Part shown: positions 6,065 to 27,974 of the stretch, piece after piece
Numbering within the stretch: position 1 is the stretch's first letter
Layout of the letters: every line of letters begins with the position of its first letter
IMG/VR virus record: IMGVR_UViG_3300046656_000050
Coordinates: 1-45,833 of that record
Source: a virus
Direction: 5' to 3' (one strand)
Length of the DNA: 45,833 bases
The notes under the pieces: model-generated
The model's database searches: none
Seen by the model: only the letters and a program-made list of their open reading frames with translations
What the model was told of the DNA's origin: nothing
Translations under genes and position numbers: made by a program

Positions 6065-7657
6065 CTAAAGCTTCCAACGCTTTCCACCTTTCATTGCCAC
6101 AACTTCAAGCAATTCTTTCATCAGACTAGATTCGTCCCAAGCAATTTCCTTGTTATCCAAGGTAGAGGTAACGATTGCTCTTTTCTGTTCTACAAGCTCA
6201 GTGAACATTTCATCCACTGTTCCAACAGTAATCATGTATGTTGCAATTACTGGCAATGCTTCGTTTGCCCGGCCAATACGGATAAACCTACCTTCTACTT
6301 GTTCTTCTGCCGCTGGCGTCCATTGCCTTTCCATTAGAATAGCATCATTGCAGAATTGCATGTTCAACCCTTCACCTGCTGCAAGGGTAGATGCTACGCA
6401 AATTCTGGAGTTAATATTATCCTTGAATCTCATTACTGCTTCATGCCTTTTGTCCATTGATTGGCTAGCAGTAATCTCTTCAATGTCTACCGAAAGACCA
6501 TTGGAAAGAATCATCTCCTTAAGCTTTGCAATCAGGTGCGCCGTTACATCCAAATGATGAGTAAAGATTGTAAGCTTAGATTCAGGTTCCCTATCTAAGA
6601 GAAAGTCTTCAACAAACTCTACTGTAGGATTAACCTTGTTCCATCCTGATAGATGTCTAAGCTTAGTCAATTGTTGAAGTGCATTGATATAGCCACCATT
6701 TTCTTTATCATCATTCATGTGATAGAAAGCATCTTCCAAGTCTTCCTGAGTTTTATCGTATGCCTTTTCAAACTCTTTCTGCATTTCCACACTGTGGAAA
6801 TTTCTGGAGATTGTAGGCAATTCCGGCGCGACTTCTGCCCTTGTGCGCCGGATGATAAAGTCAGATGTTAGTTCATGAAAGTATTCAGCGTTACGTAAAC
6901 CACCTACTTTTGTAGACCAACCGCTAGAATACGAATCACAGAAATCTCGAATGTAGCTTGCATAGTAAGTGAATGTTCTCGGTCTAAGAATGTTCAAGAC
7001 TGTAAAGTATTCTCCAGCATTGTTCATGATAGGTGTGCCGGAGAGCGCAATTATGTGAGAAACATTCTTACAGATATCTTGAACTTCCTTTGCTCTCTTT
7101 GATTCATGGTTCTTTACTTTCTGACACTCATCCAAGATTACCAGTTTGATATTGAGTGAAGCTTTGACATCTTGTGGGAGCCTACGGAGCATGTCATAAG
7201 ATACAATGTAACCCTTGAATCCCGGTACGATTTTGTCCTTTGAAGTCTTAATCATTTGTGGAATGAATTCATATCCAGCCCACCTAGACATTTCTCCAAA
7301 CCATTGCATCATCAAAGCACCCTTACATACGACAAGGTAAGGGCAAACTTCAGTTTTGTGAAGTTTCACTACACCACATGCTTGGACTGTCTTTCCCAAT
7401 CCCATTTCGTCGCTGATAAGACAACGAATGTTTGACTTCTCAGCAAACTTAATGCCTTCTACTTGGAATGGCCTAAGAGAACGTCCATCCATGCTAGTAA
7501 TATCATAGATAGAACCAACTACCTTTTCTGCTATGAAAGAGTGACCACACTTCAACTTAATGATAGTGTCCGCGCCGAATGACGAGCGTGACACTTCAAT
7601 AGCTATTGCAGTGCAATGCGGGCATTTATCTTTCATTATATGAGATACTGGACTCAT
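6065..7657 (-). CDS. SNF2-family (superfamily 2) DNA helicase/translocase
   Basis: 530 aa. A small N-terminal zinc site (C12-x2-C15 and CGH about residues 37-39) precedes the two-lobed helicase core. Motif I is DEMGLGKT (83-90), motif II DECQ (176-179), motif III SGTP (206-209). The C-terminal lobe has TIFTHH, VASTLAAGEGLN and QVEGRFIRIGR (motifs IV-VI, with arginine fingers). Length is typical of compact phage SNF2 proteins. Expected role is ATP-driven DNA translocation in replication or recombination, consistent with neighbouring Sak4, nuclease and SSB genes. GAAAGGA upstream supports the ATG. A promoter and inverted-repeat pair lie directly upstream. Confidence 0.9.
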   Translation of the reverse strand: MSPVSHIMKDKCPHCTAIAIEVSRSSFGADTIIKLKCGHSFIAEKVVGSIYDITSMDGRSLRPFQVEGIKFAEKSNIRCLISDEMGLGKTVQACGVVKLHKTEVCPYLVVCKGALMMQWFGEMSRWAGYEFIPQMIKTSKDKIVPGFKGYIVSYDMLRRLPQDVKASLNIKLVILDECQKVKNHESKRAKEVQDICKNVSHIIALSGTPIMNNAGEYFTVLNILRPRTFTYYASYIRDFCDSYSSGWSTKVGGLRNAEYFHELTSDFIIRRTRAEVAPELPTISRNFHSVEMQKEFEKAYDKTQEDLEDAFYHMNDDKENGGYINALQQLTKLRHLSGWNKVNPTVEFVEDFLLDREPESKLTIFTHHLDVTAHLIAKLKEMILSNGLSVDIEEITASQSMDKRHEAVMRFKDNINSRICVASTLAAGEGLNMQFCNDAILMERQWTPAAEEQVEGRFIRIGRANEALPVIATYMITVGTVDEMFTELVEQKRAIVTSTLDNKEIAWDESSLMKELLEVVAMKGGKRWKL

Positions 7658-7692
7658 AATGTATCCTTTCTGTTTTTTAGATTAGTTCAAGT

Positions 7693-7762
7693 AGAATCAC
7701 TAGACTGTTGTGTCTTTAGACACTGGAATAATTGGTCTCATTATAAAGTGTCTAGTGATTCT
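7693..7762. promoter_or_regulatory. Inverted 13-bp pair around the SNF2 promoter (candidate operator)
   Basis: AGAATCACTAGAC (7693-7705) is the exact reverse complement of 7750-7762; centres are 57 bp apart. The right arm lies in the spacer between the -35 and -10 elements of the leftward promoter, the left arm in the untranslated leader. As the expected transcript starts near 7733, both arms cannot be in that RNA, so a DNA-binding regulator acting at two sites is more likely than an RNA hairpin. A further small dyad GTGTC/GACAC lies between them (about 7710-7723). Confidence 0.55.
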
Positions 7763-7769
7763 AATTCAA
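7740..7769 (-). promoter_or_regulatory. Candidate sigma70-type promoter for the SNF2 helicase
   Basis: On the minus strand, TTGAAT (7764-7769) is followed after 18 bp by a perfect TATAAT (7740-7745). This places the start near 7733 and leaves a leader of about 75 nt before the helicase ATG. Confidence 0.55.
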
Positions 7770-7930
7770 CCAAACTAAAATTGCAGAATATTGACATACT
7801 AGGCTATCCGTCTACTGCTTGGGTTTAGTGCGCCTAGACCTTTTATTAAATCAAGTAGTATCAAGTGATGTTATCTATCATTTGAATCTCCTTTCTATTG
7901 CCGAATTGCAGTAAATTCATATTTAAATCT

Positions 7931-8477
7931 CCGTGTTCACTTGAAAATGTTGGTTAATTAGGATTGAATGAGTAAGTATTGTGTTCTTCTAATGTGGTAC
8001 TCCGGGGTTACTCCGGGGGTTAACTGACTTGGTTTGGCGACTGTAAGCCTCACGTTTGCCTAGGGTTACGGCTGTCGGCACTCGGTGACTCCCTGCCTAT
8101 GCCTTCAGTATACACCCCATGTCAAGTGTGTCGGTTTGACCACAGGTGTCCTGTTTAGGTGACATGGGCAAGGGGTGTGCCATAGTATGTATATATATAG
8201 TACATATATATATTATCATACTCTTTTCACATTTTCTCTCCTGTGTCCACTTACGGTGACACTTTTGGATCGGGTTCATGGGCACTCTATCACCGGAATA
8301 GATGTATACCCTAATGGCAAGGACGGCGGTAAGTCCTTTCGTTGCAACGGGTTACGGCGTTTCCCGTGCCGTGATTCGGGCCCGGAGTAACCCCGGAGTA
8401 CCACATTAGAATCCCTGAATACCAGACAGTTAAAGGTAGATTAACCAACATTCCACATGAACAAAAAGTGAACACGG
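7931..8477. ncRNA. Nested inverted-repeat region: candidate large structured RNA (or replication origin)
   Basis: Three pairs of arms close on one another: 7931-7942 with 8466-8477 (12 bp), 7947-7959 with 8440-8452 (13 bp), and 7987-8017 with 8381-8411 (31 bp, perfect). The 363 nt inside fold further by eye: 8112-8124 with 8160-8178 (7+6 bp, one bulge), an ACAGG/CCTGT hairpin inside that loop, an AT-rich hairpin at 8184-8222, a GTGT-CAC/GTG-ACAC hairpin near 8242-8262, and AAGGAC/GTCCTT near 8320-8338. The long arm holds TACTCCGGGG twice. The nested design resembles large phage RNAs such as GOLLD or ROOL in kind, but I recognise no family consensus. Strand is unknown. A replication origin is the main alternative. 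Confidence 0.5.
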
Positions 8478-8490
8478 CAATTGAATAGAT

Positions 8491-8535
8491 AAAAGAATAC
8501 TTCCTTGAGTATGATTGAAGTGGAAGTACTCTTTT
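8491..8535. terminator. Bidirectional hairpin terminator candidate
   Basis: AAAAGAATACTTCC (8491-8504) pairs with GGAAGTACTCTTTT (8522-8535) with one mismatch, loop 17 nt. A-runs and T-runs flank the stem on both strands, so it can act both ways. It lies 11 nt after the stop of the kinase-like gene on the minus strand and just right of the nested repeat region on the plus strand. Confidence 0.65.
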
Positions 8536-8546
8536 ACGTGTTCAAT

Positions 8547-8924
8547 TTACCTTTCCCAACGTTCTCTCATTACATCAATGGTTGATTGTGGTACACCATG
8601 CACATTTGGAAATAGTTTACCAGTCATTGTCATTTCGACAACGGTGTAATCGAATTTGTGAGCAATGGCATAGTAGAAATCCATTTCCCAACGTCTGGAG
8701 AATGTGTTAGACACAACTATCTGTGGACTTCCACTTTCCATCAGTAGTGTGACGTTGTTCTGACAGAATAAGTGTGCTTCCGATAGTTTAGAAGCATCAA
8801 AGTGGTATTCTCCTTCTACATTGTAGAAGTAAGTGTCTGCTTCACAATGTGGAATGTTTAGTGAACAAGCAAAGGTTGACTTTCCACTACCGGGCAGTCC
8901 ACGAACAAGATAGAGTGTTTTCAT
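8547..8924 (-). CDS. P-loop kinase-like protein (AAA_33/N4BP2L1-like)
   Basis: 125 aa. Walker A GLPGSGKST at residues 9-17, an EAD(T)YF segment after the first strand, a YHFDA-LSEAH region, VVSNT before the base-contacting helix, and a C-terminal NVHGVP...MRERWER. This order matches small polynucleotide/zeta-toxin-like kinases of the AAA_33 group. The substrate cannot be read from sequence; nucleic-acid 5' ends are one possibility. The ribosome-binding site AAGGAG overlaps the stop of the preceding 46-aa gene. A hairpin terminator follows, so this is the last gene of the leftward accessory unit. Confidence 0.75.
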   Translation of the reverse strand: MKTLYLVRGLPGSGKSTFACSLNIPHCEADTYFYNVEGEYHFDASKLSEAHLFCQNNVTLLMESGSPQIVVSNTFSRRWEMDFYYAIAHKFDYTVVEMTMTGKLFPNVHGVPQSTIDVMRERWER

Positions 8925-8937
8925 TTGTGTTTTCTCC

Positions 8938-9078
8938 TTATGCTTTGTTTACTCTTGTTTGAATACTTAGGTAAACTAAGAGCTTACCTAAAGATTCAAT
9001 AAGCGCAGGTTTTACCTTAATATTCCAGAGCCTACGTAACCCGGCAAAGGTATAGGTCTGGAAAGCTAGAGCACTCAT
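8938..9078 (-). CDS. Microprotein, 46 aa
   Basis: ATG at 9078 has a good AAAGGA seven bases upstream, and the stop overlaps the AAGGAG of the next gene, so it is spaced like a real operon member. The peptide is basic and amphipathic (LRRLWNIKVKPALIESLGKLLVYLSIQ) and could be membrane-associated. The coding-strand dyad GGTAAGCTCTTAGTTTACC lies near its 3' end. Function unknown. Confidence 0.55.
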   Translation of the reverse strand: MSALAFQTYTFAGLRRLWNIKVKPALIESLGKLLVYLSIQTRVNKA

Positions 9079-9152
9079 ACCACAATCCTTTCTTAGCAAT
9101 GATTACCTAGCTTTGGTTAATTCACATTGGGTAACCTCACACTAGGTTAGTA

Positions 9153-9308
9153 TTATCTGACTTCAATCCAAACATAAGAATCGAAGTATGGTGCAAGCGT
9201 AGTCAGTAAGTCATTCCACGTAGCGAATGACTCCACATACTTAACATCGTCTCCGCAGTAGACTTCTACCGCAGTGAGAGTGTTAGAGTATATGATTAGA
9301 GTAGTCAC
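9153..9308 (-). CDS. Hypothetical protein, 51 aa (GTG start)
   Basis: I place the start at the GTG at 9308 because AAAGGAG stands seven bases upstream. The in-frame ATG at 9374 has no ribosome-binding site and falls in the loop of a 13-bp hairpin. The protein (TTLIIYSNTLTAVEVYCGDD...WIEVR) looks like a small alpha/beta fold. Function unknown. Confidence 0.6.
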   Translation of the reverse strand: MTTLIIYSNTLTAVEVYCGDDVKYVESFATWNDLLTTLAPYFDSYVWIEVR

Positions 9309-9357
9309 GATTAACTCCTTTGGTAAGCTTAAGAGTTTACCAAAATAGTTAATCTTT

Positions 9358-9390
9358 GGGTAGACTGTAGACATACGCTACAGTCTACCC
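9358..9390. terminator. 13-bp perfect hairpin, probable transcription stop or pause
   Basis: GGGTAGACTGTAG (9358-9370) and CTACAGTCTACCC (9378-9390) pair perfectly around a 7-nt loop. It lies 25 nt after the stop of the 151-aa gene on the minus strand and before the 51-aa gene. No U-run follows on the leftward transcript, so termination may be partial. Confidence 0.6.
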
Positions 9391-9414
9391 TTAGATTACT
9401 TGGATAGTCCTAAA

Positions 9415-9870
9415 CTATCCAATGATACCCTTTGCCGTAGTAACTGCTACTTCAAGGGTAGCGCCAAGTTTCTGCATAGCATTCACTGCATCCCTAAATG
9501 CCTTTGTCTGTGCATCAGTCCATGCAGGATTCAAGAACTGAGCAAGAACGTCAGACGCCAAATGGAACTGACGCAGATTGTATCCAATGACTGCATCGTC
9601 AATCATTGTCTGCATATTTCCGGCGTAAGCTTCAGCAAGAAATGCCTTTGGGTCAGTAACTACTCCAGCCGTTCGCAATTCTTTCTCGGTTGTCATTACC
9701 TGATTGCCTTCAGCGTCCTTCACAAGCTTGCCAATGGTAACTTTACCACTAGCATCGGTCGTATCAGGTTCACGCTTTTCCACTTCCACATCAACATACG
9801 TGCCGATACCCTTGTATGTGACTTCCTTTGTCTGCCGACCGCGCGTTTTTCCAGTGATGTCTACAAACAT
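9415..9870 (-). CDS. Hypothetical protein, 151 aa
   Basis: The best-expressed looking gene of the accessory block: it has a near-consensus promoter at 9910-9938 and AAGGAG six bases before the ATG. The N-terminal half is beta-rich (YKGIGTYVDVEVEKREPD), the C-terminal half helical (AFLAEAYAGNMQTMIDDAVIG, FRDAVNAMQKLGATLEVAVT). I recognise no domain. Its promoter strength and the 13-bp hairpin after it make a single-gene transcript plausible. Confidence 0.7.
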   Translation of the reverse strand: MFVDITGKTRGRQTKEVTYKGIGTYVDVEVEKREPDTTDASGKVTIGKLVKDAEGNQVMTTEKELRTAGVVTDPKAFLAEAYAGNMQTMIDDAVIGYNLRQFHLASDVLAQFLNPAWTDAQTKAFRDAVNAMQKLGATLEVAVTTAKGIIG

Positions 9871-9909
9871 GGCTGACTCCTTCGATTGGGCGTTATTGCC
9901 CGCAAGCCG

Positions 9910-9938
9910 ATTGTATCATAGGCGTTAGAGAATGTCAA
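9910..9938 (-). promoter_or_regulatory. Near-consensus sigma70 promoter for the 151-aa gene
   Basis: On the minus strand TTGACA (9933-9938) is separated by exactly 17 bp from TACAAT (9910-9915). The TG one base before the -10 makes it an extended -10. Expected start is near 9903, giving a leader of about 33 nt that contains the AAGGAG of the gene at 9870. Confidence 0.75.
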
Positions 9939-10124
9939 CTGTGGTGAAACTACCACGGTCAAGCTTTGCCGTCAACCGAACAGACTAGCAGGCGAGATAC
10001 CGTGATAGTCTATTAACCTTTCGGCCTGATTGATAACCTAGACTCACTAGAGAGTCTTAATACCTTGCAATTGAATGCAAGCATAAATCAGGTTTGCCCT
10101 ACTTGGTTAATCTTGAATTCTCCT

Positions 10125-10163
10125 TTCAAAATGTTTAGACGACCGAAAACTCAAAAGGTTCAA
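10125..10163 (-). repeat. TTTAGACG direct repeat, copy 1 (possible promoter)
   Basis: 35 of 39 bases match copy 3 at 10833-10871. On the minus strand it reads TTGAAC, 18 bp, TCTAAA, a weak sigma70-like layout, followed by an AAGGAG that has no start codon behind it. It lies between the 73-aa gene and the 151-aa gene. Confidence 0.6.
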
Positions 10164-10226
10164 ACTGAAAACTTGCTCGTAAGCTTGAATCAGAAAGACT
10201 CAAGCTTACTGGTAAGCATTCACTTT

Positions 10227-10247
10227 GCCGTTCAAAATGTTTAGACG
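10227..10247 (-). repeat. TTTAGACG direct repeat, copy 2
   Basis: Twenty of 21 bases equal 10829-10849 (core GTTTAGACG). On the minus strand it spans the stop codon of the 73-aa gene, whose last codon and TAA are read from GTCTAA. Only the proximal half of the longer repeat is present. Confidence 0.6.
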
Positions 10248-10462
10248 TGATAGCTTGGAAAAAGTTCCCCCTGCATTTCGTCGGTTTCCACGATTTCATA
10301 GTTCCACGGCAAACGAAGAGATAGCCAATAGTTTAAAGCACGTTCACGGGTAGTGAACGGAAAAGCATTGAACGGAATGTTCGTTGAACCTTCAGGTCTA
10401 ACCCATACCGTTCTTTTAAGGGTAGACTTGGATAGAACTGGAAAATAGGCAATCATGCACAT
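10241..10462 (-). CDS. Hypothetical protein, 73 aa
   Basis: The ATG is preceded by GAGG eight bases upstream, which overlaps the stop of the 24-aa gene. A segment FTTRERALNYWLSLRLPWNYEIVETDE suggests one helix and a terminal strand. No recognised domain. Its stop codon lies in repeat copy 2. Confidence 0.6.
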   Translation of the reverse strand: MCMIAYFPVLSKSTLKRTVWVRPEGSTNIPFNAFPFTTRERALNYWLSLRLPWNYEIVETDEMQGELFPSYHV

Positions 10463-10471
10463 AGGTTTACC

Positions 10472-10546
10472 TCATATTGAGAATATGGCATACAATTGTG
10501 CCGATACCATGATTGAGAACACGACAACGAAAACGAACAAAAGCAT
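10472..10546 (-). CDS. Possible 24-aa transmembrane microprotein
   Basis: GAGG eight bases upstream of the ATG, and the TGA stop overlaps the GAGG of the next gene. The whole product is one hydrophobic helix (LLFVFVVVFSIMVSAQLYAI). The operon-like spacing argues for translation. It could be a membrane-interaction peptide or only a coupling leader. Confidence 0.45.
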   Translation of the reverse strand: MLLFVFVVVFSIMVSAQLYAIFSI

Positions 10547-10565
10547 GATTGATACCTCAAGGAAT

Positions 10566-10586
10566 GGCATATCAAAGGGATATGCC
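10566..10586. terminator. 8-bp hairpin between microgenes
   Basis: GGCATATC (10566-10573) pairs with GATATGCC (10579-10586). A second hairpin GAATAGC/GCTATTC (10608-10624) overlaps the stop codon of the 57-aa gene. Both lie in the leftward transcript and may tune expression; neither has a U-run. Confidence 0.5.
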
Positions 10587-10618
10587 AAACCTTCAATTAT
10601 CAATCTAGAATAGCTAGG

Positions 10619-10792
10619 CTATTCGTTGTTGTTCTTCAGATTGTGCCACGCAATCTTGTTTGAGAGAACAACACGGCTATAGGAGCAAACACCATCAACG
10701 AAGATTGACGACAATTCGTTGTTGAAGTAATTGATAGTTACTCCGTGGAAGTGGAAGTAACCTGTTCCGGGGGTTTGTGTGTAGCGTTCCAT
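10619..10792 (-). CDS. Hypothetical protein, 57 aa
   Basis: The start has AAGGAG seven bases upstream. The product (MERYTQTPGTGYFHFHGV...) is polar with alternating aromatic residues, probably a small beta-sheet, and ends in an Asn-rich tail (LKNNNE). It is the first gene after repeat copy 3. No homologue that I recognise. Confidence 0.6.
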   Translation of the reverse strand: MERYTQTPGTGYFHFHGVTINYFNNELSSIFVDGVCSYSRVVLSNKIAWHNLKNNNE

Positions 10793-10828
10793 GATGTTTC
10801 TCCTTGGTTAGCCTTGCTTGGTTTTTCT

Positions 10829-10871
10829 GCCGTTCAAAAAGTTTAGACGCCCGAAAACTGAAAAAGTTCAA
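10829..10871 (-). repeat. TTTAGACG direct repeat, copy 3 (possible promoter)
   Basis: The longest copy. On the minus strand it offers TTGAAC (10866-10871), 18 bp, TCTAAA (10842-10847), upstream of the 57-aa gene whose start is 50 nt away. The same layout in copy 1 suggests a shared promoter or regulator site rather than chance. Confidence 0.6.
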
Positions 10872-10895
10872 ATGCTTTTTGAATGCTTTGCCATA

Positions 10896-10919
10896 GCCTA
10901 AACTGGAAAGGGTTTAGGC
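10896..10919. terminator. 8-bp hairpin after the 66-aa zinc-ribbon gene
   Basis: GCCTAAAC (10896-10903) pairs with GTTTAGGC (10912-10919), 14 nt beyond the gene's stop on the leftward transcript. Candidate terminator or processing site; no U-run. Confidence 0.5.
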
Positions 10920-10932
10920 CACAGCAAAGGAT

Positions 10933-11133
10933 TCAACGTTCGTCGAAGTAATCATCGTAACCATTGGCAATGTTGCGTGCTATTGCCTTCTGGCATTTGG
11001 CACAAATGCTTGAGGTAGCCTTACGAGAAAGCTTTTTGCCACATTCCACGCAACGATAGACTTCTCTGCCCTTAGAATCGTGAGTAGGGCAATCTCCAAG
11101 AGAATGGCCGCAGCAAGGGTAATCTTCACACAT
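10933..11133 (-). CDS. Zinc-ribbon protein, 66 aa
   Basis: Two clear metal knuckles, CVEC and CAKC (residues about 28-48), plus an N-terminal CEDYPCCGH and DCPTH that could bind a second zinc. An acidic tail (DDYFDER) follows. Such small ribbons are usually nucleic-acid- or RNA-polymerase-binding. It is second in the leftward transcription unit, an early position. AAGGAG overlaps the stop of the preceding microgene. Confidence 0.65.
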   Translation of the reverse strand: MCEDYPCCGHSLGDCPTHDSKGREVYRCVECGKKLSRKATSSICAKCQKAIARNIANGYDDYFDER

Positions 11134-11135
11134 GG

Positions 11136-11246
11136 TTAACTCCTTCTCGAATGGCTATGCCTGATGTTTAGTTCATGCATATCGTATGCTGCTGTTTCGT
11201 GGGGCATGAACAATATCAAGACATAGAATAGAACTGACTTAATCAT
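11136..11246 (-). CDS. Microprotein with signal-like hydrophobic N-terminus, 36 aa; first leftward gene
   Basis: AAGGAG nine bases upstream of the ATG, and its last codons form the AAGGAG of the next gene. The N-terminal KSVLFYVLILFM is a hydrophobic core followed by PHETAAYD, reminiscent of a signal peptide with AxA-like cleavage, then a His/Arg-rich tail. Being first in the early arm it may be a host-takeover peptide; that is inference. Confidence 0.5.
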   Translation of the reverse strand: MIKSVLFYVLILFMPHETAAYDMHELNIRHSHSRRS

Positions 11247-11365
11247 TGATTGGTTCTCCTTCGTTGGTTGGTTAAGGTTTGAGGTTTAGGTTCTCTCTTG
11301 TCGCCACATCGTTTGACTGGCGAGTGAGGTAGCAATCGGCCTGCCAGCGAAAAACCCCAATGATT

Positions 11366-11377
11366 CCACAATTGTGG
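11366..11377. promoter_or_regulatory. 12-bp perfect palindrome (candidate operator)
   Basis: CCACAATTGTGG reads the same on both strands. It lies 120 bp upstream of the first leftward gene and 84 bp left of the iteron array, a position suitable for a repressor or initiator. Confidence 0.55.
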
Positions 11378-11461
11378 ACAGAGAAGTCTGCGCCCGGCGC
11401 GACAAATGTTCACGTATTCGCCAGACAATTGGTATTTTACGGATTCCTTACGAACTTTGAA

Positions 11462-11591
11462 TACTTATGGATTCTTTATATACTACTTATGGATTCTTTA
11501 TATACTACTTATGGACTACTTGTGTACTACTTATGGACTATTTATATACTACTTATGGACTACTTATAACTCTTTACGGACTACTTATGCC
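11462..11591. repeat. 22-bp tandem iterons (five good, one degenerate copy)
   Basis: Units start at 11462, 11484, 11506, 11528, 11550 and 11571. Units 1 and 2 are identical; all of the first five begin TACTTATGGA and most end TATATAC or GTGTAC. The 22-bp period is about two helical turns, so equivalent faces align, as in replication-initiator or activator arrays. A more diverged unit precedes at about 11437-11458. Open frames through the array merely translate the repeat. Confidence 0.85.
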
Positions 11592-11697
11592 CCACGATTG
11601 GCGACGTTGCCCTACGGCGCGATTGAATGCCGGGCATATCATAGGGCATCCTTTCCGGGTAATCGTTCCTGAGCAATCCTCGCGGCTTTTATATCAT

Positions 11698-11724
11698 TTG
11701 ACCTAATCATAAGGATTATATAAA
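11698..11724 (+). promoter_or_regulatory. Weak promoter-like sequence, rightward
   Basis: TTGACC (11698-11703), 15-bp spacer, TATAAA (11719-11724). The spacer is shorter than the ideal 17 bp. The palindromic pair at 11728-11759 begins four bases downstream, where a repressor could block initiation. Confidence 0.35.
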
Positions 11725-11727
11725 GAC

Positions 11728-11759
11728 TACGAAGGCTTTCGTATACGAAGACTTTCGTA
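11728..11759. promoter_or_regulatory. Two adjacent 16-bp palindromic units
   Basis: TACGAAGGCTTTCGTA (11728-11743) and TACGAAGACTTTCGTA (11744-11759) abut without a gap and differ at one base. Each has TACGAA/TTCGTA half-sites, typical of dimeric regulator binding; tandem spacing by 16 bp would favour cooperative binding. Confidence 0.7.
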
Positions 11760-11841
11760 TTGGGGCTAATGCCCTAAACCTGCCTACCTCTCATCTATCC
11801 ACTGGTTATCTATCCCCCGTATACCCCGCCAGCAGACACCC

Positions 11842-11883
11842 CTCCGCGCTCACGCGCGGAGAAATATTCATCCCCGTGGATGA
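11842..11883. promoter_or_regulatory. Two consecutive GC-rich hairpins
   Basis: CTCCGCGC/GCGCGGAG (11842-11849 and 11854-11861, tetraloop TCAC) followed by TCATCC/GGATGA (11868-11873 and 11878-11883). They could be a terminator, an anti-termination element or a primase site. The first is the more stable. Confidence 0.55.
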
Positions 11884-11886
11884 TGC

Positions 11887-11940
11887 TATATCTTTTAGTT
11901 CACGGATGTGTACATATCTTTTAGTTCATCTTTTAGTTCA
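11887..11940. repeat. Three TCTTTTAGTTCA direct repeats
   Basis: Copies end at 11902, 11928 and 11940, with a shorter CTAGTTCA about 30 bp on. TTTTAG/CTAAAA forms a dyad around the last copy (11931-11946). They lie upstream of the rightward promoter at 12050-12078 and may bind an activator. Confidence 0.65.
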
Positions 11941-12049
11941 CTAAAACTAAAATTAAAACAAAACCTCTAGTTCACATATGAACGCAAGCTCCCGTTCACC
12001 CAGAAATCGTAAGTCCTTCAAATACAACATGTTGCGCTCTCCCCCACAC

Positions 12050-12078
12050 TTGACAACCCGTAAAGCGGCTGCTACACT
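12050..12078 (+). promoter_or_regulatory. Sigma70-type promoter for the rightward arm
   Basis: TTGACA (12050-12055), a 17-bp spacer and TACACT (12073-12078) with TG one base before the -10. Expected start is near 12085, leaving a 13-nt leader with GGGAG before the ATG at 12098. This supports starting the first rightward gene there and not at 11978. Confidence 0.65.
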
Positions 12079-12097
12079 CCATGCACGGGAGAAATAT

Positions 12098-12598
12098 ATG
12101 ATTCTAGATGAAGAACAAGTCAACCTCAGACTTGATTCACCGGATAATCTAATTAACAAGCTATTGATTAAGCCTCTTCATAATAGTCCTGGACCTAGAG
12201 GTATTCCTCCAATGGTGCAGACTCTTGCTGTTGCTTTGGGTCAGATAGATAGTCAGCCTGCCGCTGCCAAAGCTTTTGGTATGGCACAACAGAATGTTTC
12301 TTATCTTACCCATCATGGTAAGAACATTGACAGAGATTTTGTTAAAGAGAAAGTTACCAGTGCCCATTCCTCTGCATTGGATGCAATGCTTGAATCCATT
12401 TCCCTACTTGGACCCAAGCTTAAGGATGTTAAGAAGGCAAGTGAGCTTGCACGTATAGCAGACAATATGGCAAGTGTAGTAAACAAAACAACTCCACATA
12501 CAAACACACCAAGCAATTTGGTGGTCGTAGCCTACGCGCCGAGAATGAAAGATGAAGCAGAATTTGAGCAAGTTATCACTGTAAATTCCAATCAATAA
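12098..12598 (+). CDS. Probable terminase small subunit
   Basis: 166 aa. I chose the ATG at 12098 because GGGAG lies six bases upstream and a good promoter ends 20 bases before it; the longer frame from 11978 adds 40 basic residues, has no ribosome-binding site and would put the promoter in coding sequence. Residues about 43-72 (ALGQIDSQPAAAKAFGMAQQ) form a helix-turn-helix; the following helices (ALDAMLESISLLGPKLK, ASELARIADNMASVV) match an oligomerisation region, and the tail is flexible. This order fits small terminases, which recognise packaging sites and load the large subunit. The large subunit is 6 kb downstream, an unusual separation. A transcriptional regulator is the alternative. 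Confidence 0.5.
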   Translation: MILDEEQVNLRLDSPDNLINKLLIKPLHNSPGPRGIPPMVQTLAVALGQIDSQPAAAKAFGMAQQNVSYLTHHGKNIDRDFVKEKVTSAHSSALDAMLESISLLGPKLKDVKKASELARIADNMASVVNKTTPHTNTPSNLVVVAYAPRMKDEAEFEQVITVNSNQ

Positions 12599-12655
12599 AC
12601 GTGCGCTCTCCCGGTCACTCTCCCGGTCAAGTTCACTTTCAAGCTCACGTTTAGA
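12596..12655 (+). repeat. Post-stop spacer repeat, copy ii
   Basis: Starts at the TAA of the small-terminase-like gene. Contains CTCTCCCGGTCA twice, then AAGTTCACTTTCAAGCTCACGTTT, the same TCA/TTCAAG vocabulary as copies i, iii and iv. Confidence 0.65.
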
Positions 12656-12667
12656 TAGGATCAATCA

Positions 12668-13048
12668 ATGGCTTTGACTGCTCAAATAGATGGCAAAGAT
12701 TTTGGGTGCAGCACGGCGCACATTCAGGCAACAGCGGCTGTAATTAGAGAAGTTATCAAGGCCGCGTCTGGAACTATCTATGCCATATCTGTCTCAAACA
12801 CAAACGCAACCGTTTACTATGCTCAAATATTCAACCTCGCCACACCACCTGTTGCCAGTGATGGTACAGGCTTTATGTTTAGTATCCCTATCCCTGCAAA
12901 TACAGCTGTAGGTGGAAGGGAAATGGGTATCCCTGTAAAGGGTATTGGTTGCCCTGATGGTATTGCAATTAAGATCTGTGGTGGCGGCGCGGGCAATGAC
13001 AATAGTGTGGCGGCAACTGGTGTAACTGTAACTGTCTTCTATAGGTAA
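12668..13048 (+). CDS. Predicted virion beta-sandwich protein, 126 aa
   Basis: The sequence is Gly/Ala/Thr-rich with alternating hydrophobics (TIYAISVSNTNATVYYAQIFN, VAATGVTVTVFYR), typical of a single beta-sandwich of the sort seen in phage decoration or fibre-associated proteins. It has AGGA upstream of the ATG. It is flanked on both sides by TTCAAG-type spacer repeats, suggesting a cassette that can move. No family name can be given. Confidence 0.6.
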   Translation: MALTAQIDGKDFGCSTAHIQATAAVIREVIKAASGTIYAISVSNTNATVYYAQIFNLATPPVASDGTGFMFSIPIPANTAVGGREMGIPVKGIGCPDGIAIKICGGGAGNDNSVAATGVTVTVFYR

Positions 13049-13108
13049 GCTCACGTTGTTCTCACGTTGGTTCAAGTTCAAGTAGTTCTCAAGTTCAAGT
13101 TCAAGGTC
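13046..13108 (+). repeat. Post-stop spacer repeat, copy iii
   Basis: Begins at the TAA of the preceding gene. Runs of GTTCTCA, GTTCAAG and CACGTT units fill almost the whole 64-nt gap; the final AAGG six bases before the next ATG doubles as its ribosome-binding site. Confidence 0.7.
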
Positions 13109-13112
13109 ACAT

Positions 13113-13565
13113 ATGCTTGGAGTAGAAAACGATGCACCGGCGCCGAGAGATTCTTGGAAGGCCATAGTATCAGAAGTTTCACCTCTATCTGGAAATACTT
13201 TTGAGGTTGTAGTTAGGCTTCTAAATAGCCTAACCACAAACATTCCCCTTCGCATTCAGGTTCCAATTGATTTAGAAGATCATCAAGCATACATAGAAGA
13301 ACAAACACGAGCATTCGTAAACAGCGCGCCCCGTGCGATTGATGCGAAGATAAACATTGTTCCTGGTTTAGTTTTAGACTTGAAGGAACCTATTGTTCCG
13401 GATAAGCCGCCGGACCCTAAGCTTGGTGAGTTCTCTTTGAATCTCTCGAAGCTTAGGAAGATCGAGCGCAATCCAAATCTAGATACTGGTTTAGATCTAA
13501 ACGCTATACTTGAAATACTTGAGAAACTAATAGAACAAGAACCTAGATTCTTAGATTTGCTGTAA
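13113..13565 (+). CDS. Hypothetical virion-arm protein, 150 aa
   Basis: The N-terminal half is beta-like (FEVVVRLLNSLTTNIPLRIQV), with a Pro-rich linker (EPIVPDKPPDPKLG) and a Leu/Glu-rich C-terminal helix (LNAILEILEKLIEQEPRFLDLL). Its stop overlaps the start of the next gene (TAATG), so both are coupled. No domain recognised. Confidence 0.6.
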   Translation: MLGVENDAPAPRDSWKAIVSEVSPLSGNTFEVVVRLLNSLTTNIPLRIQVPIDLEDHQAYIEEQTRAFVNSAPRAIDAKINIVPGLVLDLKEPIVPDKPPDPKLGEFSLNLSKLRKIERNPNLDTGLDLNAILEILEKLIEQEPRFLDLL

Positions 13566-14323
13566 TGGCTATAGCTTTTGATACAGCTAGCACTGGTAAC
13601 AATGCAGGTGGTAGCGCATCTTACTCACTATCACATACCTGCAATGGACCCAATGCCTTGCTTGTAATTGGCATATCAGCTGATCCAACCTCAGATATTG
13701 TTACATCAGTAAAGTACAATAGTGTTAATTGTACCCTCATAGATAAGATAAGCTCCTTCTCAGTGTCTGGTGGTAGGTGGTCGTATCTCTACTTTATCTT
13801 AGGACAAACAGGAACTAATAACATAGATGTTGTTGCCTCAACCGGTGGTTATCTATTTGTGTTGGGTGCTAGTTATACTGGTGTCAAACAAACGGCGCAG
13901 CCGGATAACCATGATGCAACGGTCACTGGTTCTCAGGTAGCAAGTTATACATCAAGTTTAACATCTAGTGCAGCTAATTGTTGGGTAATGTTACTTTCTT
14001 CGATGTATAATGGTAATGCTGCCGATCCCGGCGCCGGCACAGGATCTACACGTAGGTGTAAGGATAATTCATTTGGTGTTAATGGATTGTTTGATAGTAA
14101 TGGTAGTGTCACTGGTTCTTACAGCATGACAACTACACGTACACCTAGTATGTACTTTCAACATCTTATGGCATCGTTCGCGCCGGACACAGGCGGCGCG
14201 CCAAGTGGTAATTTGTTTAGGAAATCAAACCTAGCAGGCATCGGCGCGGGTGGTCCGTTCTTTCAAGATCCATTAGGATTTTCTAGACGTAATCATATCT
14301 ATGTGCCCAGACATCTAGCTTAA
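13565..14323 (+). CDS. Beta-rich virion/fibre protein, 252 aa
   Basis: Starts with FDTASTGNNAGGSASYSLSH and continues LLVIGISADPTSDIVTSVKYN, a pattern I associate with a beta-sandwich domain common in uncultured-phage structural proteins. High Ser/Thr/Gly content, no signal peptide. The last 50 residues are a Gly/Phe/Arg-rich tail (FRKSNLAGIGAGG...YVPRHLA). Start coupled to the upstream stop. Probably a receptor-interacting or capsid-surface protein; the precise role is unknown. Confidence 0.55.
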   Translation: MAIAFDTASTGNNAGGSASYSLSHTCNGPNALLVIGISADPTSDIVTSVKYNSVNCTLIDKISSFSVSGGRWSYLYFILGQTGTNNIDVVASTGGYLFVLGASYTGVKQTAQPDNHDATVTGSQVASYTSSLTSSAANCWVMLLSSMYNGNAADPGAGTGSTRRCKDNSFGVNGLFDSNGSVTGSYSMTTTRTPSMYFQHLMASFAPDTGGAPSGNLFRKSNLAGIGAGGPFFQDPLGFSRRNHIYVPRHLA

Positions 14324-14327
14324 TTAA

Positions 14328-15782
14328 ATGGCTAAACTTTCTGTACTCAAAGGTGCAACTTCAGTTCTAGTTCCTGTATTCATTCAGGATAGTTCTAGCA
14401 TAACTGGGGCTGGCCTTACTGGTCTTGTATTTAATACCAGTAGTTTGGTCTGCTATCGAGCTAGGAATGATGATGGCAATGCAGGTGGCACTTCAATTAC
14501 ACTTGCAACTGCAACTAGAGGAACATGGACCAGCGGTGGATTTGTAGAAAAAGATGCCACGAACATGCCAGGTTGGTATGAGTTTGGTATACCAAATAAT
14601 GCCTTGGCATCTGGTTCTCGGAGTGTTGGTATTCATTTCAAAGGTGCAGCTAACATGGCACCGCTTGCGCTTGAGATTGAACTAACTGGTTTTGATAACC
14701 AATCAGTCACTGATGGCGGCTTGAGTAAGCTAACCAGTCTAACTTTCACAGGTGCAAACAAAGTAGATGCTAGCGTTAGGGATTGGACTGGTCAAACCAT
14801 CCCCGCGCCGAACGTAACTGGTGTTCCTTTGATAGATGCAAAGTATCTATTGGGAACAATCCTTAGTACACCTGCAACTGCGGGTATCATTGAGGCAAAC
14901 GTAAAGAATATCAATAACCAAGCAACTAGTGCCTCAGGTACCATTACATTCCCATCTGGAACTATTGCAAGTACAACCGGCGCCGTGGGTAGTGTTACTG
15001 GCTCGGTTGGAAGTGTAGTTGGAAACGTTGGTGGAAATGTGGTTGGTAGTGTTGGTAGTGTAGTTGCTGGCGTTTCGTTGAGTGCTTCTGAATCTCAAGT
15101 AATTGCAAGTGGAACATTGGTGTCAGGTAATGTAAACAGTTGTGTATTGCCATCAGCTCTCGGCGCGGATGAATTGGTTAAAGGTTCCAAAATCCATTTT
15201 GTAAGCGGTGCTGGAGCTAAGCAAACAAGGATTGTTTCTAGCTATGTAGATTCTTCCAAGACAGTTTCCTTTGATAGCACACTACAAGTTGCAGTAGACA
15301 ACACTACTGGATTTGTTCTCTCTTATAATAGGCTACCACAACTCACGACAAATCTTGGTGTAGCAATCGTTGATAATGTGAATACCATTCTCGATTCAAG
15401 GATGACATTTCTTAATGCATCTATTACGAGTCGAATGGCAACCTTTACTCTGCCAACCAATTTTGACTTGCTTGCGGTCGATAGTAATGGTAAGATCAAG
15501 ACACAATCTAACATAGCTAAGAATGCAGCCCTAGCTAAGTTCCAGTTTGTGATGCGCGATGCTACAACCAATGCACCGGCGCCAGGTAAAATAGTTACTG
15601 TTACACGAAGTATTGATAACGGTACCCACGGCGCGGGTGCGCTGAGTGCTATCACGGAAATAGGATTTGGTACCTATAGTGTGGACTTTGCAGCAGCAGA
15701 CTTGAATGGTAATGTGATTGTGCTCAGAGCTACGGCTGGTAGTTGTAGTGATACATTTGAACGAATCATTACCACCCCATAG
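14328..15782 (+). CDS. Large virion protein with glycine-rich repeat stalk, 484 aa
   Basis: The N-terminal 120 residues form a beta domain (SVLVPVFIQDSSSITGAGLTG...MPGWYEFGIP). The middle has 'ANV'-type linkers (VRDWTGQTIPAPNVTGVP, IIEANVKNINNQ) and a repeat stretch of GSV/GNV units (residues about 215-245), typical of a trimeric fibre stalk. The C-terminal 100 residues look like an Ig-like domain. This is the architecture of tail-fibre or capsid-fibre proteins that present carbohydrate- or receptor-binding ends. Its location before the large terminase differs from the second fibre cluster at 30-34 kb. Confidence 0.6.
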   Translation: MAKLSVLKGATSVLVPVFIQDSSSITGAGLTGLVFNTSSLVCYRARNDDGNAGGTSITLATATRGTWTSGGFVEKDATNMPGWYEFGIPNNALASGSRSVGIHFKGAANMAPLALEIELTGFDNQSVTDGGLSKLTSLTFTGANKVDASVRDWTGQTIPAPNVTGVPLIDAKYLLGTILSTPATAGIIEANVKNINNQATSASGTITFPSGTIASTTGAVGSVTGSVGSVVGNVGGNVVGSVGSVVAGVSLSASESQVIASGTLVSGNVNSCVLPSALGADELVKGSKIHFVSGAGAKQTRIVSSYVDSSKTVSFDSTLQVAVDNTTGFVLSYNRLPQLTTNLGVAIVDNVNTILDSRMTFLNASITSRMATFTLPTNFDLLAVDSNGKIKTQSNIAKNAALAKFQFVMRDATTNAPAPGKIVTVTRSIDNGTHGAGALSAITEIGFGTYSVDFAAADLNGNVIVLRATAGSCSDTFERIITTP

Positions 15783-15856
15783 TGTGCTCTCAAGTCGTTC
15801 TCACGGTCAAGTCGGGTTCACGTTGTTCTCAAATTCAAGTCGTTTTCAAGTCGTTT
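15780..15856 (+). repeat. Post-stop spacer repeat, copy iv
   Basis: Begins at the TAG of the 484-aa gene. Contains AGTGTGCTCTCAAGT identical to copy i on the other strand, then GTTCTCA, GTCAAGTCG and GTTTTCAAGTCG units up to the next ATG. It has no Shine-Dalgarno sequence, so initiation of the downstream gene must use something else. A frame from the GTG at 15782 would translate the spacer but looks non-protein-like. Confidence 0.75.
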
Positions 15857-17056
15857 ATGATCACAAGCTTAAATCCACTTGGACCTGGAGATTCATCTCA
15901 TGATTCCACAGGTTCAAAGACTCTGTTTGTTCAAGGTTCGCTTGCAGGTCCATTAGTATTGTATGCAAAGGCAGCAGGTGGTAATTGGTCTTCCCCAAAC
16001 ACTTGGAGTATTACTGGTTCAGGTGGAGCTGATAATAGTGGACCACCAGATGCTACACAACCATATGATGTAATCTTCGAGGCTGGTAGTGGAAATGTAA
16101 CTATAGATGCAGATGCTTCGTGTCGTTCTTTGGATTGCACTGCCGGCGCGGGTAGTTACATTGGAACATTGACACACAATGCGTTCAACTTGAAAATTGG
16201 TCACACCTCGGCGCCGCCGTCGAACGTTAGTTTAAAGTTTAGTATTGGAATGACCTATGTTCCAGTAAGCACTTCTTCAATCATTACTCTGACCTCTACG
16301 GTAGTGACTTCAGTGTCCATAATTACAGCTAACAAAACTCTCGGCGCGCTAACAGCTAGTGGACTTACTGGTTCCTGGGCGCAAATAGGTTCCATTACAA
16401 TTACTGGATTCTTAATTCTTAGTGGTGGTACTTACAACACTAATAGCAACACAATCACGGCGCAGGGTATTGCCTTTACTGGCTCGACCGCAAACTTGGG
16501 AAGTAGTCAGATAAACCTAACTAGAACAACAGCTGGAAACATAGTTACTGCTACGGCTGGCACGATCAATGCTGGCAACTCTGAGATGATCGTTGTTAAT
16601 GCTAGTAGCAGTGCCAGAACATTCGCTGGCGGTGGCAAAGTCTATTACAACCTAACATATATTGTTGCTGGATCTTCGGGTGGTCTGATCATAACAGGTG
16701 CTAACACATTCCATGATCTAAAATTTAGTGATGCTATCAGTGCTCGAACACTAACAATGCCATCAGGAAGCACAACTACTATCACCGGAGTGTTCGGAGT
16801 TAATGGTACTTCTAGCAATCTCATGACTGTAGTTGGTAGTTCGACAGGAGTCAGCGCGCCGGTAAGTAAAGCTAGTGGAATTGTTAGTTGTGATTATTTG
16901 TCGCTGAAAGATAACCCGGCAACAGGTGGTGCAACTTGGTATGCTGGCGCTAATAGTATAGATAATGGTAACAATGCTGGTTGGTTCTTTACTGCGGCGC
17001 CGGGCGGTGGCGCTGGAGTGGGGCAATACTTGTTACTCGTAAAGGCAGGACAGTGA
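15857..17056 (+). CDS. Beta-helix-like virion protein, 399 aa
   Basis: I start at the ATG at 15857 (MITSLNPLGPGDSSHDSTG); a longer frame would read through the spacer repeat. From residue about 45 it has WSITGSGGADNSGPP...VIFEAGSGNVTIDADASCRSL, then repeated short strands with S/T/N turns (TLGALTASGLTGSWAQIGSI, LILSGGTYNTNSNTITAQG), consistent with a right-handed parallel beta-helix. Ends with a C-terminal Gly-rich hinge and hydrophobic strand (GVGQYLLLVKAGQ). Probably a fibre or adhesin. Stop overlaps the next ATG. Confidence 0.6.
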   Translation: MITSLNPLGPGDSSHDSTGSKTLFVQGSLAGPLVLYAKAAGGNWSSPNTWSITGSGGADNSGPPDATQPYDVIFEAGSGNVTIDADASCRSLDCTAGAGSYIGTLTHNAFNLKIGHTSAPPSNVSLKFSIGMTYVPVSTSSIITLTSTVVTSVSIITANKTLGALTASGLTGSWAQIGSITITGFLILSGGTYNTNSNTITAQGIAFTGSTANLGSSQINLTRTTAGNIVTATAGTINAGNSEMIVVNASSSARTFAGGGKVYYNLTYIVAGSSGGLIITGANTFHDLKFSDAISARTLTMPSGSTTTITGVFGVNGTSSNLMTVVGSSTGVSAPVSKASGIVSCDYLSLKDNPATGGATWYAGANSIDNGNNAGWFFTAAPGGGAGVGQYLLLVKAGQ

Positions 17057-17295
17057 TGGATCTCCATGTAGATCTAGGACAAGTAATCATTGCAAGTTTG
17101 ATAGGAACTGTTGGTTACTTTATTAAAAAGGAAATCTCAACATTTGGTGCAAGACTAGATAGGCACGAGACTATCATCTTTGGAATGGCCCAGAACATTT
17201 CTACTGTCATTGGGCAAGTTGGCATTCTTAGTAAGATGATTGGTATCGAGTCGAATGCCATTGAGATGTACAAAATACATTCCAAAAGTCCATAA
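17056..17295 (+). CDS. Small membrane-anchored protein, 79 aa (holin candidate)
   Basis: The ATG overlaps the upstream stop (TGATG). One transmembrane helix (VIIASLIGTVGYFI, residues about 9-22), then a coiled-coil-like soluble part (TFGARLDRHETIIFGMAQNISTVIGQV). The layout resembles haemolysin XhlA-like or spanin-like proteins, but nothing diagnostic is present. With the two-helix protein at 17970 it could form a lysis cassette. Confidence 0.55.
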   Translation: MDLHVDLGQVIIASLIGTVGYFIKKEISTFGARLDRHETIIFGMAQNISTVIGQVGILSKMIGIESNAIEMYKIHSKSP

Positions 17296-17334
17296 AGTTT
17301 TCGGATACAAATGTCTTTGGAAAAGGGGACAGAG

Positions 17335-17775
17335 ATGAAATTTGCGATTGAGACAAACAATGGTTGGGTTAGCTTGCAGCCGGACGGTTCTATTCAATAT
17401 CGTCCCAAAGAAACTACACCGGGTCCATACGAAATATTTAATCTTGTAAGTCTTGATCCTCCTATCTCTATCTGTAAGTTTGTTCCAAGTACTCCAAGTA
17501 CACCTACTGGATTTGATCCAGCGGTAAGGCAACCTTGGCCGCGCCCGATGCCGCCTGATATTGATACAACAGTTGAAAATGAGGTCATTGACCGAGTTGA
17601 CTGGAACCTTCAGAATCTGAATAGTAGCGATGATAGATCCTATTGGGTTGATGTAATTCAAGGTAGGAAAGAACATCTTGCTGTTCCTGGTTGGACTGCT
17701 GATGGATACTGGCGCACAGAGAAGATGGCTCACGCTGAGGGTAATGGTAAAGGTTACGTTTGGCCACCGAGGTAA
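17335..17775 (+). CDS. Hypothetical protein, 146 aa
   Basis: ATG at 17335 is preferred over 17311 because AAGGGG lies seven bases upstream. The N-terminus (NGWVSLQPDGSIQYRPKETTPGPYEIFNLVSL) has the look of a beta-trefoil/fascin-like repeat; a Pro-rich linker (STPSTPTGFDPAVRQPWPRPMPPD) follows, and the C-terminus is aromatic (WVDVIQGRKEHLAVPGW...GYVWPPR). It lies between two small membrane-protein genes; a role in adsorption or lysis is possible but unproven. Confidence 0.55.
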   Translation: MKFAIETNNGWVSLQPDGSIQYRPKETTPGPYEIFNLVSLDPPISICKFVPSTPSTPTGFDPAVRQPWPRPMPPDIDTTVENEVIDRVDWNLQNLNSSDDRSYWVDVIQGRKEHLAVPGWTADGYWRTEKMAHAEGNGKGYVWPPR

Positions 17776-17784
17776 GGAGACAAC

Positions 17785-17970
17785 ATGAATAGCTCAAATG
17801 GTAAGCAGATTGCTGTTGGTGACAAAGTGATCATCGAAGGAATTGTCCGAGATATTGTTTCAGGACTTCCTAACCATGTCCGCGTCGAGCTTGTACATCG
17901 TAATCCAGTTGAAGAGAATCTAGTTGAGTCCTTAGTCATTAGTTCAAGTCAGCTAACAAAGGCTGAGTGA
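17785..17970 (+). CDS. Small SH3-like protein, 61 aa
   Basis: AAGGAG six bases upstream of the ATG. The sequence VGDKVIIEGIVRDIV...VRVELVHRNP has the alternating pattern of an SH3/KOW-like small barrel. Its TGA overlaps the next ATG. Function unknown. Confidence 0.6.
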   Translation: MNSSNGKQIAVGDKVIIEGIVRDIVSGLPNHVRVELVHRNPVEENLVESLVISSSQLTKAE

Positions 17971-18173
17971 TGATTACTGTACTACTAGCAGTCACTATTA
18001 TTGGATTTCTGGCATATGTGCTATCTGAATTGGTGCCAGAGCCATTTAAGAAGATTGTAATAGCAGTTGGAATACTGTTGATAATCTGGTACTTAGTACA
18101 GACCTTTGGTTTAGACTTTCCAATTCCACGCAGACACGCAGATTCGTTCATTCCTACCTGGGAGCCAAGATGA
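17970..18173 (+). CDS. Two-helix membrane protein, 67 aa (holin-like)
   Basis: Two transmembrane segments, residues about 2-19 (TVLLAVTIIGFLAYVLS) and 30-48 (IVIAVGILLIIWYLVQTFG), joined by a short ELVPEPFKK loop, and a basic tail. It resembles the small two-helix phage membrane proteins annotated as Thivi_2564 family. Size and topology suit a class II holin, but there is no endolysin next to it. Stop overlaps the next start. Confidence 0.6.
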   Translation: MITVLLAVTIIGFLAYVLSELVPEPFKKIVIAVGILLIIWYLVQTFGLDFPIPRRHADSFIPTWEPR

Positions 18174-18442
18174 AGCCAAGCATTGGTCGTATTGTCCATA
18201 TTAGTTTCAATGGCAAGATCTATCCTGCAATTGTAACTAGTGTCATGCCAGATGATTCCTTGAACCTGAATGTCTTCAATGATGCAGTTATCTTCTTTGA
18301 AGGTAACGCGGCGCCGATGATCATGATACCTTCTGTGTATCATGGGAGTGGCAATATGGAATGGAACTGGCCGCCTATTGTTGATGTTGGTAAGGCTGTA
18401 GCAGGAGCAACAACAGCACCAACAAAACAGTCTGAGAAGTAA
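18170..18442 (+). CDS. Small phage protein with beta-barrel look, 90 aa
   Basis: Starts KPSIGRIVHISFNGKIYPAIVTSV and continues LNLNVFNDAV...MEWNWPP, a pattern seen in small SH3-like proteins encoded just before large terminases in many uncultured phages. The C-terminal 25 residues are a low-complexity Ala/Thr linker. It overlaps the upstream gene by 4 nt and the terminase start by 1 nt. Confidence 0.6.
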   Translation: MKPSIGRIVHISFNGKIYPAIVTSVMPDDSLNLNVFNDAVIFFEGNAAPMIMIPSVYHGSGNMEWNWPPIVDVGKAVAGATTAPTKQSEK

Positions 18443-20109: not shown

Positions 20110-20374
20110 ATGCATTCGTTGCAGACAATTGCTTGAGGATTTAGACTATGAGAGGGAACGAAATCGAGAACTCTTCCAAATTATCCTTGCGTCATCTAGA
20201 GTATCTGTGGCAGAGAATAAAGAAGAAGAAAAAGAAGAGTTCCATTCTGTTCGACCGCGTTATGTACCTTGGCACCAGAGAAGGCGAGAACTTGAAAGGC
20301 AGAGAAGGACTTCTAAACTTACGGAAGCTGAAGAATTATTCGAGAGGGAATTAGATGCCAGCAAAATCGGATAA
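19976..20374 (+). CDS. Charged helical protein between terminase and portal (start uncertain)
   Basis: The last 88 residues, read after the terminase stop at 20109, look genuine: EYVECIRCRQLLEDLDYERERNRE coiled coil, then RPRYVPWHQRRREL, a pattern common in small phage genes at this place. The only ATG (19976) lies 134 nt inside the terminase in another frame without a good ribosome-binding site; a TTG near 20079 is an alternative. I therefore trust the 3' part and not the start. Role unknown, perhaps a packaging accessory. Confidence 0.5.
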   Translation: MRNFSKLRIKQRFIVLWSALKLNIQRILLFGRTLDLLDRDEEYVECIRCRQLLEDLDYERERNRELFQIILASSRVSVAENKEEEKEEFHSVRPRYVPWHQRRRELERQRRTSKLTEAEELFERELDASKIG

Positions 20375-22666: not shown

Positions 22667-22677
22667 GGAAAAGTGAG

Positions 22678-23925: not shown

Positions 23926-23936
23926 GAGGAAAAATC

Positions 23937-25208: not shown

Positions 25209-25258
25209 AATGATTTGGTTTGTTGTGTTTGTTCTGAATATTGTTTGGGGGTACTAAG

Positions 25259-25561: not shown

Positions 25562-25564
25562 TTT

Positions 25565-25628: not shown

Positions 25629-25649
25629 TTCTAAAATTCAGGAAGGAAA

Positions 25650-27293: not shown

Positions 27294-27295
27294 AA

Positions 27296-27973: not shown

Positions 27974-27974
27974 T

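Follow-up and report, generated by a model that had tools for sequence, protein, structure and literature searches.

The window analysed here, 45,833 bases long, is the whole of the virus record IMGVR_UViG_3300046656_000050, from an uncultured phage. The two ends of the record are identical over 127 bp, which allows a circular reading of the map. The closure lies inside a (TCT)n run (positions 1–36 and 45665–45742), and the shared 127 bp may be a k-mer overlap left by the assembler instead of a true terminal repeat of the phage. The window contains a tailed-phage gene set, including a Sak4-like protein and an exonuclease. It encodes a SNF2-type superfamily 2 helicase with conserved Cys/His residues near its amino-terminus (6065–7657, minus strand), which served as the anchor for the family, the large terminase subunit (18442–20109), a primase/helicase-like DUF3987 protein (40256–41500, minus strand) and a family A DNA polymerase with an amino-terminal uracil-DNA glycosylase domain (42222–44720, minus strand; 31–48% identity in relatives). 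The leftward genes start at 11133 and the rightward genes near 12 kb, which bears out the divergent point of the map described in a first-pass annotation of the sequence. The leftward arm contains the replication genes and the rightward arm the structural genes; an array of 22-bp repeats is located in the gap between them. The statement that no Rep gene is recognised also held for the proteins scanned, which include a minority of the structural-arm genes between 22.7 and 40 kb. In the structural arm, low-complexity GAAGAA and AAGAAGAACAAA repeats are present (22825–22949 and 27208–27265). At the DNA level, window positions 10001–30000 have no match in a collection of 50,697 phage records.

The divergent gap is 964 bp long. 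It extends from the first gene of the leftward arm (10933–11133, minus strand), which encodes a 66-residue zinc-ribbon-like protein with weak zinc-ribbon matches below the curated cut-offs, to the rightward gene F3, with a probable start at 12098. The array occupies positions 11462–11589 (plus strand, 5.8 × 22 bp) and is real: for 11462–11588, Tandem Repeats Finder reports a period of 22 with 5.8 copies, 87% matches and a score of 163, or alternatively a period of 11 with 11.7 copies. Of the five 22-bp units, two read TACTTATGGATTCTTTATATAC and the others TACTTATGGACTACTTGTGTAC, TACTTATGGACTATTTATATAC and TACTTATGGACTACTTATAACT. The array is built on an 11-bp half-unit with the core TNNTTRTRNAY, in which TACTTATGGAC and TATTTATATAC alternate; there is a one-base slip in the last part of the array, and the units decay at both ends. 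All four window matches to a degenerate 30-mer of the array fall inside it, and 100 dinucleotide shuffles contain none. Compared with such shuffles, the 11-bp array scores z = 24 within its gap. It has the series of helically spaced direct repeats that is looked for in an iteron origin.

A single inverted copy of the unit (AGTCTTTATATAATCCTTATGA, 11707–11728, minus strand) is found about 120 bp beyond the array and matches better than any other site in the rest of the window. Its score is 18.1, against a mean of 9.1 (standard deviation 2.5) in shuffles of the gap, when all phases of the 22-bp unit are scored (p = 0.007). The DNA between the array and the inverted copy is not AT-rich (AT fraction 0.30–0.63); measured per 30 bp, AT content is 67–80% in the array itself and 60–67% around 11681–11770, unlike the TATATA cores of the family described below. 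An array that is private to one genome and decays at its ends could also be tandemly duplicated AT-rich DNA that is neutral, maintained by slippage and bound by no protein. However, the half-units vary at some positions while the core positions are kept, the pitch equals one helical turn, and the inverted copy also counts against slippage because slippage makes no inverted copies; we regard such an origin of the array as very unlikely. A hairpin or RNA element was rejected, as the single strand has no fold (z = –0.27), and Rfam gives no match within 7600–12200. A protein-coding reading was likewise rejected: frames on the plus strand run open across the array and the unit contains no stop codon, but no ribosome site was seen.

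To the right of the array, two tandem 16-bp palindromes TACGAAGNCTTTCGTA (11728–11759) have an operator-like appearance and are followed by three TCTTTTAGTTCA repeats (11888–11942). By eye, TGAAA-N-TTTCA palindromes can be seen in many relatives upstream of the structural-arm promoter, at the place of the TCTTTTAGTTCA repeats, and are likely to be an operator. The structural-arm promoter itself is a sigma-70-like TTGACA-17-TACACT sequence (12050–12078, plus strand) with 10 of 12 matches. In a promoter scan of the region as a whole, sites were no commoner than in shuffles, so this assignment rests on the sequence itself and on the occurrence of promoters like it in the relatives. The annotated start of the first rightward open reading frame, at 11978, is probably wrong and the ATG at 12098 more likely, since the promoter falls inside the frame begun at 11978.

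This first structural-arm gene, F3 (12098–12598, plus strand), encodes a helix-turn-helix protein that may be a packaging small subunit or a regulator. In the alignment, the helix-turn-helix region is present in the window and several distant relatives, and is missing from most main-clade members, which retain the two ends only. Packaging sites often adjoin the small-subunit gene, and the array could accordingly be a pac or cos recognition site for F3, which is the next rightward gene, encoded 500 bp away, and has the region that most main-clade members lack. However, F3 has no match to small-terminase families, its structure model (pLDDT 81, pTM 0.43) has no match in the PDB at E ≤ 0.001, and gaps next to an F3 with the helix-turn-helix region are not significantly richer in repeats (Mann–Whitney p = 0.11, or 0.23 without the window). 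We consider a packaging site quite improbable.

Relatives were collected with the helicase alone (five), with a six-row helicase alignment (42 loci), with the polymerase (13 loci, some of them already in the set) and with the terminase (one further record, G006). The number of records examined, including the window, is 46 (39 + 7); loci L032, L035, L043, L053 and L054 and records G040, G041 and G046 were left out. The best protein identities to the window are about 28–51%, depending on gene and genome, with the nearest relatives at about 45–51%. No closer relative was found, including in a search of IMG/VR contigs and in a helicase scan of genome contigs, which returned only helicases of 24–29% identity. 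The family has a common gene order, with the large terminase subunit and F3 on one strand and the helicase on the opposite one.

The gap adjoining F3 was tested in 34 records including the window, one of which (G036) is a near-duplicate of G020. The z-score for a 10- or 11-bp array is 24.2 in the window, followed by 6.6 in G007, 5.5 in G027, 4.6 in G001 and 4.1 in G038, whose arrays differ in sequence from that of the window; none of the 33 other family gaps contains a comparable array. When an 11-bp matrix derived from the window array is run over the 34 gaps, three consecutive similar units are found only in G020 and G036 (score 17.6, shuffles near –9 with a standard deviation of 4.4 to 5.1), with G033 weaker at 2.8. 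No IMG/VR contig matched the array pattern. A wider repeat search revealed unrelated repeats in the F3 gaps of G023, G012, G006, G001, G027 and G029. Repeats in this gap are common, and the 22-bp array is private to the window phage. Conservation in related genomes, on which the first-pass annotation had let its proposal depend, is missing apart from the three units in G020 and G036. This absence is a weak refutation of an origin, because even the nearest relatives share so little protein identity.

In many relatives, Tandem Repeats Finder detects 10-bp arrays elsewhere, upstream of the helicase gene. Often two such arrays flank a TATATA stretch, which is followed by a TTGACA-17-TATACT-like promoter aimed at the helicase. 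This dyad lies 1–5 kb before the SNF2-type helicase gene and has units of 10 bp, or 11 bp in a distant clade. An array test was performed on 330 bp at each side of the AT-rich core in 30 genomes including the window, with matched dinucleotide shuffles. Dropped before counting were two duplicates (G034 of G032 and G036 of G020), three genomes with no core by the selection rule (G045, G048 and G049) and those in which the region was not reached or the helicase was unusable (G003, G004, G006, G016, G021, G022, G026, G028, G030, G044 and G047). The helicase of G045 (record positions 36180–38771, minus strand) matches in two pieces about 1 kb apart within a single 876-codon open frame, a pattern that an intein or another in-frame insert would give. 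The cores were hand-picked as the AT-rich stretch before the promoter, and those of G012, G023, G027, G029, G032 and G035, which gave no promoter match, and of G031, G037 and the window were chosen by eye, partly after the repeats had been seen. A z-score of at least 4 was obtained for 43 of 58 flanks and for 3 of 120 segments drawn at random from these genomes, a difference to be read with the core selection in mind, which is biased towards the dyad in a way that the random-segment control does not remove. At least one flank reaches z = 4 in 27 of the 30 genomes, the exceptions being G013, G014 and the window.

Autocorrelation of the dyad regions, summed over 21 main-clade genomes, gives z-scores of 25, 14, 10 and 5.4 at lags of 10, 20, 30 and 40. 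In five distant genomes, lag 11 reaches 5.8, with lag 22 weak at 3.0 and lag 10 also at 3.0. In the F3 gaps, with the window excluded, short lags dominate and lag 10 (z = 5.6) is not accompanied by a series. In all 18 of the 30 genomes that have both flanks at z ≥ 3 and equal pitch, the units on the two sides mirror each other. The left unit agrees with the reverse complement of the right unit at 0.78 on average and with the right unit itself at 0.37 (Wilcoxon p = 7.6e-6), and its agreement with its own inverted partner also exceeds that with right units from other phages (0.38, p = 1.3e-11). Manual scoring of G037 yields 0.94 for the inverted and 0.65 for the direct comparison. The distance between the arrays is 271–381 bp. 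The family dyad has inverted sites at either side of an AT-rich core, the arrangement looked for in an oriS-like element. The unit sequence varies between phages, while pitch and geometry are constant, and in the 13 genomes tested the unit occurs elsewhere at about chance level. The named distant phages PP438425 (Mel-JY34), OP947158 and MW202489 have no such paired arrays in the Tandem Repeats Finder output, and no description of the phage family or the dyad was found among the openly licensed PMC papers searched. A separate motif, TGATTCTAAAGGACTTA (with four two-way positions), occurs eight times in 6 of 39 genomes (G008, G023, G024, G027, G032 and G034, with G032 and G034 near-duplicates there) and not in one shuffle of each; by eye, related forms are present inside many dyads, sometimes facing GTAAGT as a possible hairpin.

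The window has a corresponding element of its own, 0.3 kb from the helicase gene. Its outer arm (8381–8411, minus strand) is 31 bp long with 11-bp units TACTCCGGGGT and TACTCCGGGCC, and its inner arm (7987–8017, plus strand) is an exact inverted repeat of the outer one. The arms, with two units each, are about 360 bp apart, inside the family range, and enclose an AT-rich core with a TATATA stretch (8181–8220). After the core follows a TTGACA (8120–8125, minus strand) with a TATACT 7 bp on, not 17, so that the promoter seen in the dyads of relatives looks broken in the window. The array test is weak here (z = 2.2 and 2.3) because there are only two units per arm. From its position, core, geometry and inverted repeat, we take the region 7987–8411 to be a reduced form of the family dyad.

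The first-pass annotation had read the 22-bp array as a replication origin. The array is indeed real and at the divergent point, with the cumulative GC-skew minimum (about 12.9 kb) 1.3 kb away, but the relatives do not have it and the dyad offers a better candidate elsewhere. The skew minimum is near the array, but in relatives it follows the change in gene direction and marks no element precisely; GC skew was rejected as an arbiter of the origin, as it tracks gene direction. On the best reading of the sequence, the array is lineage-specific and the dyad the better origin candidate. We put at roughly 0.5 the probability that the 22-bp array is a control or accessory element and not the conserved origin of the family, the likely origin being the dyad at 7987–8411.

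Some observations go against this assignment. The array equals the best family arrays in strength while the dyad of the window is weak, so the function could have moved to the array in the lineage of the window, and the array has an inverted partner, as half of an origin would. The array would then be the working origin, with an initiator on the phased 11-bp sites, and the dyad at 8.0–8.4 kb a relic or a second origin. This is possible but doubtful: the 11-bp pitch is the same as in the window dyad and the distant clade, and the skew minimum is not far, but there is no AT-rich core between the array and its partner, no other family gap contains such an array, the dyad persists with its exact 31-bp inverted repeat, and the array unit TACTTATGGAC and the dyad unit TACTCCGGGGT share only 6 of 11 positions, a level judged no better than chance over all phases and strands.

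As to the proteins that might bind these sites, the left and right units of a dyad mirror each other and match their own partner best, so one putative protein probably reads both arrays, which would change together in each lineage. One conserved protein encoded near the dyad, F15 (9415–9870, minus strand), is present in 22 genomes and is preceded by a sigma-70-like TTGACA-17-TACAAT promoter (9910–9938, minus strand). It has no fold match, its structure model (pLDDT 88) giving no PDB match at E ≤ 0.001. Co-variation of the unit with 18 protein families over 19 genomes left none outstanding after correction for relatedness (partial rho ≤ 0.22); the unit similarity is weakly correlated with most core proteins alike. 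The distant phages G010 and G033 have nearly the same unit (0.94) and proteins that are not specially alike, which leaves room for a host protein as the binder.

If the dyad is the origin, the putative protein would assemble on both of its arrays and thereby strain and open the TATATA core; the geometry of arrays and core is what is observed. The opened core would allow loading of the DUF3987 protein, the SNF2-type helicase and the family A polymerase, and in relatives transcription from the adjoining promoter may assist the opening. The 22-bp array would provide 11–12 helically phased sites, one per turn, for one protein that binds double-stranded DNA, the phased pattern being apparent in the sequence. 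That protein, either the one of the dyad or another, most likely wraps or loops the early/late region and so controls the two divergent arms, or else the array serves as an accessory site for the replication protein. A further proposal is that the family initiates at the mirror-array dyad with an unrecognised type of initiator bound once per turn, which might be the SNF2-type helicase or a small protein encoded next to it. The sites would drift from phage to phage under a constant geometry, with a change of pitch between 10 and 11 bp among clades, and the second array, having grown at the early/late hub in the window lineage, would perhaps be taking over. We hold this more elaborate scenario to be unlikely.

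The layout of the dyad can be compared with that of known elements. In the herpes simplex virus oriS, according to PMC12543377, boxes in opposite orientation flank an AT-rich spacer and the initiator is an SF2 helicase. Like oriS as described there, the phage element has opposed sites around an AT-rich core, with an SF2 helicase of SNF2 type encoded nearby. In contrast, oriS has single boxes where the phage dyad has 4–7 phased units per array, and the phage helicase is at most a candidate binder of the arrays, akin to the oriS initiator in its superfamily. In iteron origins (of plasmids, lambda-type phages and satellites such as PLE with its RepA iterons), tandem direct repeats are likewise located in a non-coding region, and the iteron sequence of PLE is required for replication, as stated in PMC7145576. 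Unlike these, no Rep or O-like gene is recognised among the phage proteins scanned, the conserved element of the family consists of two inverted arrays of 10- or 11-bp pitch, and the 22-bp array has no adjoining AT core of the family kind.

The repeats themselves are like those of parC of plasmid R1 and its relatives, which are 10- or 11-bp direct repeats of a sequence divergent between families. PMC9426499 describes ParR binding to direct repeats of 10 bp (pB171) or 11 bp (R1), with parC repeats differing between families, and a reference cited there gives ten repeats flanking a promoter for R1 parC. The dyad, and perhaps the array too, could by analogy be a centromere-like site for a ribbon-helix-helix protein, since here also 10–11-bp direct repeats lie near a promoter. 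However, the Pfam scan of the window proteins, which covered part of the open reading frames, contains no ParM-, ParA- or ParR-like protein, and the phage arrays, in a phage genome, are inverted halves around an AT core; a centromere is therefore highly unlikely. The dyad resembles oriS in its layout and parC in its 10/11-bp repeats, a likeness of arrangement that we do not extend to membership in either class. In lactococcal phage c2, the divergent early and late promoters enclose a non-coding origin. The 22-bp array, as an origin-type element in a divergent early/late gap, is like it in location.

Without a recognisable Rep gene, a phage origin is hard to place from sequence. In this family, a geometric signature of phase, inversion and AT core outlives the sequence of the sites across about 30 genomes, and a search based on geometry is a way to seek origins in uncultured phages. 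The family also offers a clean system in which to study the joint change of specificity in a binding protein and its sites, and poses the question of whether spacings of 10 and of 11 bp are both compatible with an assembly that places one subunit on each turn.
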